Source: Natronococcus occultus SP4
GTDB lineage: Archaea; Halobacteriota; Halobacteria; Halobacteriales; Natrialbaceae
Assembly: GCF_000328685.1 (NCBI RefSeq)
Contig: NC_019974.1
Location: 1,169,001-1,233,000 of the forward strand
Reading direction: 5' to 3'
DNA: 64,000 nt
Of this stretch, positions 5,548 to 10,047 are shown piece by piece. The stretch's first letter is position 1; each line of letters starts with the position of its first letter. The notes beneath the pieces are model-generated. The model was not told where the DNA came from and ran no database searches. It saw only the letters and a program-made list of their open reading frames with translations. The position numbers and the translations under genes are program-made.

Positions 5548-5889
5548 TTACGCGTCGCCCCAGTCGGGCCGTTTCCGTGGCGGCGCGAGGACGCCGATTC
5601 CGATCGCGGGCTCGGACGAGCGGTTCTCGGCGCCGTGGCGCTCCCGGCTCGGAAACCGATAACAGTCGCCGGGCGCGAGCGTTACCTCCTCGCCGCCGGC
5701 CGTCGCGACCAGTCGTCCTTCGAGCATGTAGCCGATCTGTTCGTTGTCGTGCTCGTGAACGGGAAGCTCGGCCCCGGGATCGATACGCCAGAGTTTTACG
5801 CTCGCTCGCTCGCCGATCGCGAGATCCGCGAGGTACACCCCGTCGCTAACCTCCTCGAACCCCGCCTCCTCGCTGTTCGCTTTTTCCAT
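5548..5889 (-). CDS. Single-domain cupin protein
   Basis: A 113-residue cupin with both metal motifs: motif 1 PVHEHDNEQIGYMLEGRL (H-x-H then Glu) and motif 2 PGDCYRFPSRERHG with the third His. Such small cupins act as sensors, isomerases or dioxygenases; the sequence does not say which. The ATG at 5889 (MEKANSEEAG) was preferred over an in-frame upstream start because it sits correctly behind TATA sequence at 5925-5934. It is transcribed divergently from the three-gene binding-protein cluster and shares its 90-base promoter region. Confidence 0.8.
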   Translation of the reverse strand: MEKANSEEAGFEEVSDGVYLADLAIGERASVKLWRIDPGAELPVHEHDNEQIGYMLEGRLVATAGGEEVTLAPGDCYRFPSRERHGAENRSSEPAIGIGVLAPPRKRPDWGDA

Positions 5890-5920
5890 GCTATCACACC
5901 ACGTGACATATGTCCACAAT

Positions 5921-5957
5921 CTCCCTTATAAAAGTTGATGAGAAACGTTTATTAGTG
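5921..5957. promoter_or_regulatory. Divergent promoter region, cupin / binding-protein cluster
   Basis: CTTATAAAAG (5925-5934) can serve the leftward cupin gene, and GTTTATTAG (around 5948-5955) lies 25-32 bases before the ATG at 5980, fitting a leaderless transcript for the rightward cluster. Confidence 0.5.
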
Positions 5958-5979
5958 GAGTCGTTATCATTGTGTCTGC

Positions 5980-6876
5980 ATGCCAGAGAATAACACTCTT
6001 AATCTGTTTCACCTCCCGTTCTCGTTCGTGCTCCCACAGCGGGTGGCGGTCGAGCGGGGATACTTCGAGGAGGAGGGGGTCGACGTCGACCTGATCGAGC
6101 GGGATAGACGCTCCGTCGAGATCAAGTACATTCCCGCCGAGGAGACGCTAACCGGCGACTACGAGGTCGATCTCTACCCCGTCTGCAAGTGGGAGAGTCT
6201 GAAGCGAACGTGGGGGATGGGAGACGGGAAGGTCGTCGCAAACGGGACCTTCGCCGACCAGCCCTACACCGTGTTCACCCGATCGGAGACCGCCATCGAG
6301 TCGCCGTCCGATCTGGCCGGCGTCGAGGTCGCCGTCAACCGCCGCACCGGCCAGGAGTACACCGCGATGCGAGCCCTCGAGGAACACGTCGCTCCCGAGG
6401 ACGTCCACCTCGTCCACTACGGGATGCCGACCGACCGACTGCGGGCGCTACGGGACGAGGAAGTCGACGCCGTCACGCTGCTGGATCCCCAGTCGACGCT
6501 GGCCGAGCAGCTGGGATTCGAGCCCGTCCTCGAGTTCGAGAACCACATGGGGATCGTCGGTGGCGACGCCGTCGACACCGAACTGCTCGAAGCGTACGTC
6601 GCGGCCTACACCCGCGCCGTCCGTGACATCAACGCCGATCCCGAGTCGTTCCGGGAGGAGTACCTCGAGATGCTCGAGAAGGACGCCCAGGTCGCACCCG
6701 ATCTCTTCGAGGACGTCGACATGGACGCCCTCCGAGAGCAAGTGACGGTGCCGCGCTACGAGGTGCCGGACCTGGCCGATCGTGAGGATCTCGGGACGCA
6801 GCTCGAGTGGATGAAAGAGCGCGAACTGATCGACGACGAGGCCGAGATCGACGCCATCGTCGCCTCGCTGGGGTGA
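5980..6876 (+). CDS. Cytoplasmic SsuA/THI5-fold protein, first of three
   Basis: A 298-residue protein of the nitrate/sulfonate/taurine binding-protein fold (SsuA/NMT1/THI5 type). FSFVLPQRVAVERGYFEEEGVDVDL near the N-terminus and the SPSDLAGVEVAVNRRTGQEY hinge region are typical. It has no signal peptide, lipobox or Tat motif, and no ABC permease or ATPase is nearby, so it is unlikely to be a transport receptor. Proteins of this fold also include soluble enzymes such as 4,5-dihydroxyphthalate decarboxylase and THI5-type pyrimidine synthase. The next gene starts 5 bases after its stop. Confidence 0.75.
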   Translation: MPENNTLNLFHLPFSFVLPQRVAVERGYFEEEGVDVDLIERDRRSVEIKYIPAEETLTGDYEVDLYPVCKWESLKRTWGMGDGKVVANGTFADQPYTVFTRSETAIESPSDLAGVEVAVNRRTGQEYTAMRALEEHVAPEDVHLVHYGMPTDRLRALRDEEVDAVTLLDPQSTLAEQLGFEPVLEFENHMGIVGGDAVDTELLEAYVAAYTRAVRDINADPESFREEYLEMLEKDAQVAPDLFEDVDMDALREQVTVPRYEVPDLADREDLGTQLEWMKERELIDDEAEIDAIVASLG

Positions 6877-6881
6877 TCAGG

Positions 6882-7883
6882 ATGGCGGAATCCACTACCG
6901 TCGACATCGAGAGTCAGCAGGCCGAACTCGACACCTACCACGACGAGCCGGGCGATCGACCCGTCCTGCGGGCCCGCTTCGAGCACAACGGGAGTCCACG
7001 GTACATGCTGTACACGATCAAACGGCTCGGGCTCGATCACGAGCACGGCTTTCATCTCGACGTCCAGCTCGTCTCGGATTCCCTCGAGGGTGGCGTCGAG
7101 ACCGTCGAGGCCAAACTGCAAGAGGGCGACGCCGACCTCATCGACATCGACTACATCTCGACGGCCCGCGAGCGTGCCGACGGGGCGCCAATCGTGGCGA
7201 TCCACCCGTACGGACGGACCGTCGGCGGGCTCGTCACCCCCGAGGACTCCCCGATCGAGGACCTGACCGACCTCCGGGGGCGTCGGATCGGCGTCGTTCG
7301 CCGCCTCGACAAGAACTGGATCCTCGTGCGGGCCGCCTGTCGGGAGCGCCACGGGTTCGATCCCGACGAGGAAGCGACCCCCGTCGAGGCGGGCTCGAAG
7401 GTCGAACTCACGCGGATGCTCCGGGACGGCGAGGTCGAGGGGGTCCTCCAGTTCTGGCCGATCGTCCCCGAGATCACCGAAACGGGACCCTATCGGGAGG
7501 TGTTGCCGATGGCCGAACTCGTCCAGGATCTCTCCGAGACCGATCGGAAGCTGCCGATCTCGACGTTTCTGACCAGCGAACAGTATCTCTCGGAGAACCC
7601 CGACGCAGTACGTGGATTCAAGGGTGCCTACCGGGACGCCGTCGACCGACTGACGAGCGACGACGAGCTCTGGGAGGACATCGGCGAGCGCCTGATGTAC
7701 GAGGACGACCCCGAGATCGTCCGAGCCGTCCGGGACGGCTGGCGGGAGATGGTCGTCGCCGACTGGGACGCGGAGACGATCGACGGTATGGATCGGCTGT
7801 TCGACCACCTGCTCGAGGTCGCGGGCGCCGACGCGCTCGGCGTCGATCACGTGCCGGACGACATGTTCCGGCTGGAGGTGTGA
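6882..7883 (+). CDS. Cytoplasmic binding-protein-fold protein, second of three
   Basis: A 333-residue relative of the same fold: VLRARFEHNGSPRYMLYTIKRLGLD, then EGDADLIDIDYISTARERADGAPIV, then the hinge-like DLTDLRGRRIGVVRRLDKNWI. It has clearly diverged from both neighbours. No export signal. The start MAESTTVDIESQ at 6882 was chosen because it follows the previous stop by 5 bases and the longer frame overlaps the previous gene heavily. It is separated from the third member by 3 bases, so the genes are surely one transcript and may be subunits or successive steps. Confidence 0.75.
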   Translation: MAESTTVDIESQQAELDTYHDEPGDRPVLRARFEHNGSPRYMLYTIKRLGLDHEHGFHLDVQLVSDSLEGGVETVEAKLQEGDADLIDIDYISTARERADGAPIVAIHPYGRTVGGLVTPEDSPIEDLTDLRGRRIGVVRRLDKNWILVRAACRERHGFDPDEEATPVEAGSKVELTRMLRDGEVEGVLQFWPIVPEITETGPYREVLPMAELVQDLSETDRKLPISTFLTSEQYLSENPDAVRGFKGAYRDAVDRLTSDDELWEDIGERLMYEDDPEIVRAVRDGWREMVVADWDAETIDGMDRLFDHLLEVAGADALGVDHVPDDMFRLEV

Positions 7884-7886
7884 CGG

Positions 7887-8852
7887 ATGGAGCCACTCAC
7901 CTTCCAGCTCAACTGGGAACCCAACGGGTTCCAGGCGCCGTACTTCCTCGCTCGCGAGCGGGGGTTCTACGAAGAGGAGGGGCTGGACGTCGCCTTCCTC
8001 GAGGGCCACGGCTCGCCGTTCGCCGCCGAGCAGGCGGCCAAGGGAGAGGCCGATATCGCCCTCGCCGGCGCCAGCGCCGTCCTCTCGGTACAGAGCCAGG
8101 GTCACGACCCCCTCGCCGTCGCGGCGGTGACCGCGAAGACGCCGGCGGCGATCTACACGCTCCGGGACGTGTTCGGTGAGCCCCTCGAGGAGCCCGAACA
8201 GCTGGCCGGACGCACCGTCGCTCCCTCCGCGACGAAGACCAGGATTCTGACCGCTCAGCTCCTCGAGGACGTCGGCATCCGCGAGGAGGTCGACCTGCTC
8301 GAGGTCGATCCCCACACCCACCACCGCGTCCAACATCAGGTGCTGGACGGCAGCGTCGACGCTGCCGTCGGCGTCGTCACAAACGGGTTCGAACTCGAGG
8401 ACGAACACGATCGGGTCGCCGATGAGCTGCCGATCGGGAACCACCTGCCCGTCTACGGGATGACGCTGGTCACCAACCCCGCCTTCGCCGACGAGGAGTC
8501 AGCTACCGTGAGCGCCTTCCTCCGGGCGACCGCCCGCGGCTGGGCCGAGGCGACGGCCGATCCGGAGGCTGCGATCGACGCCCTGGTCGCACGGAACGCG
8601 ACCCTCGAGCGACGACGCCGGATCGAGCGCGAGAAGTTCGAGACGGCCGCCCGGGACCTCCAGTTCAGCAGCCACCTCGAGGACGCCGGCTGGGGGAACC
8701 ACGACGGGGAACGCTGGCGACGCCTCGCGAGCGCGCTCGCCGAGACCGACCTCCTCGAGGGCGAGATCGATCCCGACGCCGCCTGGACCAACGACTACCT
8801 CGATCCGGACGCGCCAGTCGTCCGGGAGTACGCAACGCGGGTGAACACCTGA
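7887..8852 (+). CDS. Cytoplasmic SsuA/THI5-fold protein, third of three
   Basis: A 321-residue protein and the most canonical NMT1/THI5-like member: FQLNWEPNGFQAPYFLARERGFYEEEGLDV, followed by GEADIALAGASAVLSVQSQGHDPL and QLAGRTVAPSATKTRI. No signal peptide or lipobox. The LNWEPN opening is close to the LNW-x-PN found both in HMP-precursor transport receptors and in the yeast THI5 enzyme. The CCCFC-type cysteine motif of THI5 is absent (I see no cysteine), so THI5 chemistry is not predicted. It ends 2 bases before the VOC gene. Confidence 0.75.
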   Translation: MEPLTFQLNWEPNGFQAPYFLARERGFYEEEGLDVAFLEGHGSPFAAEQAAKGEADIALAGASAVLSVQSQGHDPLAVAAVTAKTPAAIYTLRDVFGEPLEEPEQLAGRTVAPSATKTRILTAQLLEDVGIREEVDLLEVDPHTHHRVQHQVLDGSVDAAVGVVTNGFELEDEHDRVADELPIGNHLPVYGMTLVTNPAFADEESATVSAFLRATARGWAEATADPEAAIDALVARNATLERRRRIEREKFETAARDLQFSSHLEDAGWGNHDGERWRRLASALAETDLLEGEIDPDAAWTNDYLDPDAPVVREYATRVNT

Positions 8853-8854
8853 CG

Positions 8855-9283
8855 ATGGACGCCGTCGATCACATCAACGTCGACGTCGACGACCTCGAGA
8901 CGGCGTACCCGTTCTACCGCGACGTCCTCGAACTATCGGTTCGGCGACCGCCCGAGGAGTTCCACGGCGAGCACGCGATGTTTACGGTCGGCGACACCGT
9001 CCTGACCCTCGTCGAGACGGGACGGGCCGACGGCTGGGCGTCCTCGGACCTCGAACACCCGCTGGACAAGGCCCACCTCGCGTTCGAGACCGATCGGGCG
9101 AGCTACGAGGAGTACGTCGACGAGCTCGACGGCCAGTTCCCGAACCAGGGGCCCTACGACTGGGACGAGTTCGAGGGGTTTTACTTCCTGGACCCGGACG
9201 GAAATCTGCTCGAAGTGATTACCTACGACCCGCCGGACGGCGAACGCGATCGGCCGTTGCTTACCCACGACGATGTCGCTTGA
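8855..9283 (+). CDS. VOC (glyoxalase/bleomycin-resistance) family protein
   Basis: A 142-residue single-chain protein with two beta-alpha-beta-beta-beta halves: VDHINVDVDDLETAYPFYRDVLEL at the start and FEGFYFLDPDGNLLEVITYDP near the end. His6 and Glu131 or so are in the usual metal-ligand positions. VOC proteins are isomerases, lyases or extradiol dioxygenases. It begins 2 bases after the third binding-protein-fold gene and is the last gene of that operon, which supports a catabolic or modifying pathway rather than transport. Confidence 0.8.
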   Translation: MDAVDHINVDVDDLETAYPFYRDVLELSVRRPPEEFHGEHAMFTVGDTVLTLVETGRADGWASSDLEHPLDKAHLAFETDRASYEEYVDELDGQFPNQGPYDWDEFEGFYFLDPDGNLLEVITYDPPDGERDRPLLTHDDVA

Positions 9284-9429: not shown

Positions 9430-10047
9430 ATGACCGACGACCGCAGTCGCTGGAACGAGAAGTACGGCGATCCGGAGTTCGAGCTGCCCGAGGACCCGAT
9501 TCCCGAGCTCGAACACTGGATCGAGACGCTGCCGGACGGCCGCGCGCTCGACGTCGCGACCGGGACCGGTCGCAACGCGCTCTATCTCGCCGAGCGCGGG
9601 TACGACGTCGAGGCGGTTGACGTCTCCGACGAAGCTCTCGAGCTGGCACGGGACCGAGCCACGAAGCGGGGCGTCGACGTCGACTGGATCCGCACAGATC
9701 TCCAAGAGTTTGAGTGTGAACGCGGTGCCTACGATGTGATCACGGTGAGTTTCTTCGCCGCGCTCGAGCACCTGCCGGAGCTCAAAGAGGCGCTCGCGCC
9801 AGGCGGGGTCCTGGTGTACGAACACCACCTGCGTTCGGCCGACGACGTCGAGATCGGACCCTCGAGCGATCGCTACCGGTACCGCTCGAACGACCTCCTC
9901 CGGTCGTGTCTCGATCTGACGATCCTGCACTACGAGGAGCGCGTTCGCACCGTCACTGACGGCACCGCAGCGGTCGTGACGATGCTCGCGCGAAACTCGA
10001 GCGGCGGAACGCAGTCGTACCCCGATCTCACAGAACGGCGCGACTGA
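9430..10047 (+). CDS. Class I SAM-dependent methyltransferase
   Basis: A 205-residue protein. The glycine-rich SAM motif DGRALDVATGTGRNALYLAERGYDVEAVDVS (about residues 40-68) is clear, followed by the acidic loop DWIRTDLQEF and DVITVSFFAALEHLPELKEALAPGGVLVYEHH, resembling the TehB/UbiE-like small methyltransferase group. The start MTDDRSRWNEKYGDPEF is typical of that group and was preferred to a longer frame overlapping the VOC gene. It lies 146 bases after the VOC gene, so it may be separately transcribed. Substrate unknown. Confidence 0.85.
   Translation: MTDDRSRWNEKYGDPEFELPEDPIPELEHWIETLPDGRALDVATGTGRNALYLAERGYDVEAVDVSDEALELARDRATKRGVDVDWIRTDLQEFECERGAYDVITVSFFAALEHLPELKEALAPGGVLVYEHHLRSADDVEIGPSSDRYRYRSNDLLRSCLDLTILHYEERVRTVTDGTAAVVTMLARNSSGGTQSYPDLTERRD

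Follow-up and report, generated by a model that had tools for sequence, protein, structure and literature searches.

The cupin, the three signal-less proteins of solute-binding fold (here named A, B and C) and the VOC protein encoded side by side in Natronococcus occultus SP4 are supported by our analysis as a real, conserved and co-inherited cytoplasmic five-gene unit, which is almost certainly linked in function to a quinoprotein alcohol dehydrogenase. Judged from its sequence and its predicted structure, protein B is a PqqT-type protein, and A, B and C, together with the cupin and the VOC protein, may well handle imported PQQ in the cytoplasm and deliver it to a cytoplasmic quinoprotein.

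The window, which is the whole 64-kb stretch of DNA analysed, contains the genes for A (5980..6876, 298 aa, NMT1/SsuA fold with a CKWES motif), B (6882..7883, 333 aa) and C (7887..8852, 321 aa) on the plus strand, each with a Pfam NMT1/THI5-like match, and these are followed on the same strand by the VOC gene (8855..9283, 142 aa, glyoxalase/FosA-type fold). The gaps of 5 (A-B), 3 (B-C) and 2 bases (C-VOC) confirm the tight packing of three binding-protein-fold genes described in an earlier note on this DNA, and its identification of the cupin and VOC partners is borne out by Pfam matches to Cupin_2 and Glyoxalase. The cupin gene (5548..5889, minus strand, 113 aa, ATG at 5889 with an upstream TTG at 5919) diverges from A across a 90 bp promoter region (5890..5979) with TATA-like boxes in opposite directions, TTATAAAA and TTTATTAG, the latter ~28 nt upstream of the start of A; such boxes are also present in related loci, and the A transcript is probably leaderless. 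Invariant residues in the orthologues of the cupin (H45-x-H47, E50/Q51 and H85) and of the VOC protein (H6, H74 and E120, a metal-type triad) predict that both are metalloproteins. A gene for a TehB-like class I SAM methyltransferase (9430..10047, plus strand) is loosely linked to the block and adjoins the VOC gene in Natronococcus only.

None of the A, B and C orthologues (27, 27 and 10 sequences, respectively) has a Tat motif, a lipobox or a signal-like hydrophobic stretch, in agreement with the earlier note, and the same check did find signals in the lipoprotein SBP that belongs to the linked importer (described below) and in a bacterial PqqT. In a structural alignment with an SsuA precursor, the first residue of A falls at residue 25, so a signal has not simply been overlooked. 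A, B and C therefore lack the defining features of the SBPs of ABC importers, which are exported and encoded with a permease and an ATPase, and the idea that binding-protein folds are used here outside their usual extracytoplasmic role is upheld. No permease or ATPase gene was seen around A-B-C within the 64-kb window, and the statement that ABC genes are absent nearby holds to this extent; it fails for several other genera, where an ABC importer with its own lipobox SBP abuts the block.

Gene order around A-B-C is well conserved. Other Natronococcus loci encode A, B and C proteins that are 91-97% identical to those of SP4, and cupin, A, B, C and VOC genes were all present in every one of 12 relatives, with A/B/C spacings of 1-13 bases (one of 68) or 4-base overlaps, and with the VOC gene immediately after C in 11 of these and 2.4 kb away in the remaining one. 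When protein A was searched against 84,980 species genomes, 35 loci were obtained, all from haloarchaea or archaeal MAGs. Across these loci and the 12 relatives, the order of the cupin, A and B genes was intact wherever contig coverage allowed it to be followed, C was found in nearly all, as was a VOC gene either adjacent or at most a few kb away; many of the 35 loci in which it does not follow C have it beside the cupin gene instead, one has no detectable C and one has two B genes. The five genes were thus found to co-occur with conserved order, as the earlier note had proposed should be checked. Protein A (E<=1e-100) is carried by 40 of 292 sampled Halobacteria genomes, from at least four families. 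In Halalkalicoccus-type loci the genes between C and VOC were considered as pathway clues and set aside, as they are of the Na+/Ca2+ and Na+/H+ exchanger types. A role in anti-phage defence was rejected after PADLOC matched none of the three proteins. Plasmid tblastn searches showed that A-like and B-like genes exist in bacteria, but the four bacterial regions inspected all lacked the complete A-B-C trio.

The ligand of the block is best approached through protein B. A phmmer search of the PDB with B returned PqqT (9b1u, E=2e-27) with no comparable rival, and its only strong solved relatives were 9b1u, 9b1v and 9ooz, which are PqqT with PQQ, PqqT with PQQ and Gd(III), and the Y161W variant (PMC12828617 and entry titles). 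The AlphaFold2 model of B (mean pLDDT 84.6) gave PqqT with PQQ as its three best PDB matches in Foldseek (E 9e-22, TM 0.91 on the target, next match 5e-13), VIA-align gave a Z of 34 for PqqT versus 23.6 for the next chain, and the rmsd to PqqT was 2.2-2.3 Å. As residue numbers in 9b1u run 27 above those in 9ooz, Lys142 of PqqT corresponds to the lysine of LDKNW, which is K144 in B; this lysine and the F191-W192 pair (Y161-W162 of PqqT in 9ooz numbering) are invariant in 27 B orthologues. The K142D mutation of PqqT is one that tunes metal binding (PMC12828617). Compared with PqqT of Methylorubrum extorquens, which is periplasmic, B shows homology over its whole length, the same fold and the shared motifs PY[GS]xxVGGL, LDK[NS]W (K142) and [FY]W, but it is only ~25% identical, lacks a signal peptide, and its gene shares a three-gene operon for cytoplasmic proteins with those of A and C. 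Like B, the PqqT relatives in Sinorhizobium and Sagittula cluster with a quinoprotein: they adjoin xoxF-type genes, have a signal-like N-terminus, are accompanied by permease or ATPase genes, and have PY[GS]xxVGGL, LDK[NS]W and FW in common with B. We predict that B probably binds a PQQ-type ligand. The earlier view that the block matches no known system had missed this resemblance, with PqqT in complex with PQQ being the top PDB match.

A candidate recipient for such a ligand is encoded close to the block in other haloarchaea. Annotated haloarchaeal plasmids carry 'PQQ-binding-like beta-propeller' proteins near it, which are full homologues of quinoprotein alcohol dehydrogenases (PF01011; PedH, XoxF and ExaA types in the PDB), and about 20 block loci have a quinoprotein gene within ~12 kb. 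The SP4 gene (C1:1710026-1711543) is ~0.54 Mb from the block, and its product matches TIGR03075 with an E-value of 1e-108, although its score of 364 bits (class maximum 413) is below the curated cut-off of 480. All the residues for PQQ and metal that we compared are retained: E104, C151-C152, R157, E219, W261, N279, D322 and D324 correspond to E55, C104-C105, R110, E172, W238, N256, D299 and D301 of XoxF, and the linked quinoprotein thus keeps a lanthanide-type DYD site, the D-x-D pair serving as a lanthanide marker (PMC11996626). With XoxF/PedH-type enzymes it shares the vicinal Cys pair, the Glu, the Asn, the catalytic Asp and the extra Asp of DxD, and it differs from them in being signal-less, in falling below the TIGR03075 cut-off and in always being paired with a ~300-aa protein outside recognised families. 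Its 21 close homologues all have a hydrophilic, RR-free N-terminus without a signal, so export is not expected. A vicinal disulfide is unusual in a cytoplasmic protein. Quinoproteins have been described as rare in archaeal genomes, and the haloarchaeal protein differs in type from those of marine Thaumarchaea, most of which have signal peptides or membrane spans and lack the Cys-Cys motif (PMC7300363).

Among the 292 Halobacteria genomes, a quinoprotein (E<=1e-60) was present in 38 of the 40 with the block versus 11 of the 252 others (p=3e-35, where this and the other Fisher p-values given here overstate the case, since the genomes are related and not independent samples). In SP4, an importer island lies beside the quinoprotein gene and encodes the ~300-aa protein, a lipobox SBP, two permeases, an ATPase and an HTH-NMT1 regulator, while in Natribaculum and Natronococcus AD-5 the quinoprotein, the ~300-aa protein, the block and the importer form a single island. 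The importer ATPase (E<=1e-90) was found in 31 genomes, all of which (31/31) have the quinoprotein (p=2e-29) and 21 of which have the block. The 49 quinoprotein genomes comprised 21 with both block and importer, 17 with the block only, 10 with the importer only and one with neither (p=0.04, suggestive); because only the top candidates in each genome were scored for the importer, the block-only count may be inflated. The 10 importer-bearing quinoprotein genomes without A-B-C indicate that the quinoprotein can do without the block.

Profile searches detected no PqqE over its cut-off in any of the 292 Halobacteria genomes, and no PqqB or PqqC over cut-off in 32 genomes with quinoprotein and block. 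In the positive control, pSymB of S. meliloti, PqqC (429 bits) and PqqE (608 bits) scored well above their cut-offs, which validates the search for these two proteins. The lack of recognised PQQ synthesis genes in block-bearing haloarchaea suggests that PQQ is imported, yet it could also mean that A-B-C, the cupin and the VOC protein are themselves enzymes that stand in for PqqABCDE, making or finishing the quinoprotein cofactor from a precursor that is either imported or internal. The presence of either the importer or A-B-C in 48 of 49 quinoprotein genomes, as if there were two routes to one supply, the metal-type residues of the cupin and VOC proteins, the invariant Cys of A and the existence of enzymes with this fold, such as DszB and MqnD, would all be in keeping with cofactor synthesis. 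Conversely, the block contains no peptide precursor or radical-SAM partner, B looks like a binder and not an enzyme, and the uncertainty of the block-only count weakens the argument from two routes, and we consider this explanation unlikely. The more specific form in which the five proteins constitute a hitherto unknown enzymatic pathway for making or remodelling a PQQ-type cofactor without PqqABCDE, in the service of cytoplasmic lanthanide/PQQ alcohol oxidation, is rather more doubtful.

On the side of the cupin gene, the block is neighboured by genes for AOR (Halomarina, Halalkalicoccus and others), the large subunit of a Mo-hydroxylase (Halococcus) or ALDH (Haloterrigena), which would fit oxidation of an alcohol to an aldehyde and then an acid, with the second step performed by different enzymes. 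The SP4 genome has four AOR-family genes, none of them in the block of the window. A 554-aa ORF of the importer island was considered as a further AOR and discarded, since Pfam assigns it to DUF7343/DUF7345. The Mo-hydroxylase, AOR and ALDH genes that lie against the block in different genera might alternatively mean, in line with the earlier note, that A, B and C are enzymes or subunits of a cytoplasmic catabolic or biosynthetic pathway for an aromatic or nitrogenous substrate, with the quinoprotein and AOR/ALDH carrying out the alcohol and aldehyde oxidation of the same pathway. DszB, MqnA/MqnD and 4,5-dihydroxyphthalate decarboxylase (9jp7) provide precedents for a cytoplasmic enzyme with the binding-protein fold, but their similarity to A-B-C is at the generic fold level only, and no enzyme of the fold comes nearly as close to B as PqqT does. 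Moreover, neither a ring-attacking oxygenase nor a CoA ligase was noticed repeatedly at the block loci, and the aldehyde oxidiser changes between loci whereas A-B-C remain constant, which makes such a pathway fairly improbable and less likely than PQQ handling.

Proteins A and C gave no specific sequence relationship to PqqT. The AlphaFold model of A (pLDDT 91.5) has the generic SsuA/ThiY/THI5 fold, and Cys69 and Trp71 within the CKWES motif are invariant in its orthologues, so that an enzymatic role for A is possible on the strength of these residues. Homologues of A in bacteria (Geminicoccaceae, Mesorhizobium) and a paralogue in Halococcus are likewise signal-less and keep the Cys-x-Trp, which makes A part of a cytoplasmic family that is wider than the block. 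The lipobox SBP of the linked importer shares 37% identity with C, and the sensor domain of the importer's HTH regulator shares 30%. An hhalign comparison set K117 of C opposite K144 of B, but at a probability (15.7%) too low to be given weight. The earlier proposal of a free-standing three-enzyme pathway without a transporter is not supported by these results, as the SP4 genome has an ABC importer that is linked to the quinoprotein and related to C through both its SBP and its regulator, and B is PqqT-type. The HTH-NMT1 regulator uses the fold as a sensor, and A, B and C could by analogy have a sensory or regulatory role for the island in the cytoplasm, acting as ligand-binding partners in a circuit for transcription or enzyme control; they have no DNA-binding or other output domain recognised by Pfam, however, and three sensors in one operon with a cupin and a VOC protein would be odd, and we regard this role as very unlikely.

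Among solved structures, C is closest to ThiY (3ix1), a thiamin-bound protein (4nmy) and THI5, from which C, or the whole set, might be supposed to serve in THI5/ThiY-type synthesis or salvage of HMP/thiamine precursors. C shares the fold and general sequence family of ThiY and the THI5 HMP-P synthase, but the catalytic residues of THI5 are absent (K62 and H66 are replaced by A60 and A64) and there is no CCCFC iron motif. ThiC, which C could have replaced, is not correlated with the block (27/40 block genomes versus 151/252 others, p=0.39), and thi genes were not seen beside it. A role as THI5/HMP synthase or as substitute for ThiC was rejected on these grounds; it is less likely than PQQ handling, and a thiamine-precursor function in general is largely refuted and highly improbable.

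The co-inheritance of the block with quinoprotein and importer, and the likeness of B to PqqT, make intracellular handling of PQQ the most likely function of A-B-C. We propose that PQQ or a close relative would enter from the environment via the linked ABC importer, and that B, together with A and C of the same fold, would bind and protect the cofactor in the cytoplasm and hand it over to the signal-less quinoprotein alcohol dehydrogenase with its lanthanide-type DYD site. The quinoprotein would then oxidise alcohols to aldehydes, which may be removed by the neighbouring AOR, Mo-hydroxylase or ALDH, while the cupin and VOC proteins might keep or restore the redox or chemical state of the cofactor. 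We infer from the gene associations and similarities described above that PQQ is the ligand, in which direction it is transferred and what A, C, the cupin and the VOC protein do. Two block genomes without a detected quinoprotein argue against PQQ delivery, and so do the quinoprotein genomes that have the importer but not A-B-C, the TIGR03075 scores below the cut-off, the vicinal disulfide and the lack of a specific PqqT relationship for A and C; as the importer SBP resembles C and not B, the ligand of the importer could be other than PQQ.

PqqT and XoxF are already known as kinds of protein, and what appears new here is the occurrence of signal-less versions of both together in one archaeal system; this combination, with two further binding-protein-fold partners, was not found described in the open-access papers searched. 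We know of no PQQ enzyme that works inside the cell. If our reading is true, there would be a cytoplasmic PQQ economy in haloarchaea, PQQ enzymes being otherwise known as periplasmic (PMC12124388), and these organisms would offer a new place to seek lanthanide-dependent enzymes. The solute-binding fold would gain a new use as an intracellular cofactor carrier, and opaque annotations as 'ABC transporter substrate-binding protein' would acquire a testable role.

In the same genome as the window, the signal-less PQQ alcohol dehydrogenase homologue (the quinoprotein) of locus L038 is flanked by a protein of approximately 300 aa (L038:5686-6588, minus strand), which also adjoins quinoproteins in related loci. 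The copy from the quinoprotein locus L096 gave no matches when searched against Pfam and NCBIfam, and in the plasmid search all matches to this protein came from haloarchaea. A second lineage of haloarchaeal quinoproteins, found at loci L104 and L105, is longer (636–651 aa) and likewise signal-less, with the WDYD motif retained and the vicinal Cys motif absent, and even this divergent type is accompanied by the ~300-aa protein, which is a candidate electron acceptor or maturation partner of the quinoprotein.

Other genes found repeatedly near the quinoprotein (L096, L099, L087 and others) encode a CDC48-type AAA ATPase, a 2Fe-2S ferredoxin, a coiled-coil-like protein, an SCO4226-like (DUF4242) protein and a SAM methyltransferase. 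The ABC importer of L038 is linked to a one-component regulator (L038:10421-11692, minus strand) with a sensor domain of the NMT1/SBP fold, and we read its N-terminal region as HTH-like.

Within the window, the G+C content drops from approximately 0.63 to approximately 0.50 in positions 22001-64000, a stretch that may represent an integrated element or may have had a different history; a tRNA search of the window found none.

In the Haloplanus ruber block (L079), matches to the PqqT-type protein B form a tandem pair. Bacterial and haloarchaeal relatives of protein A (L090:11959-12870, L092:11956-12870 and L091:11992-12909) are signal-less and retain the Cys-x-Trp motif, and constitute an uncharacterised, predicted cytoplasmic SBP-fold family.
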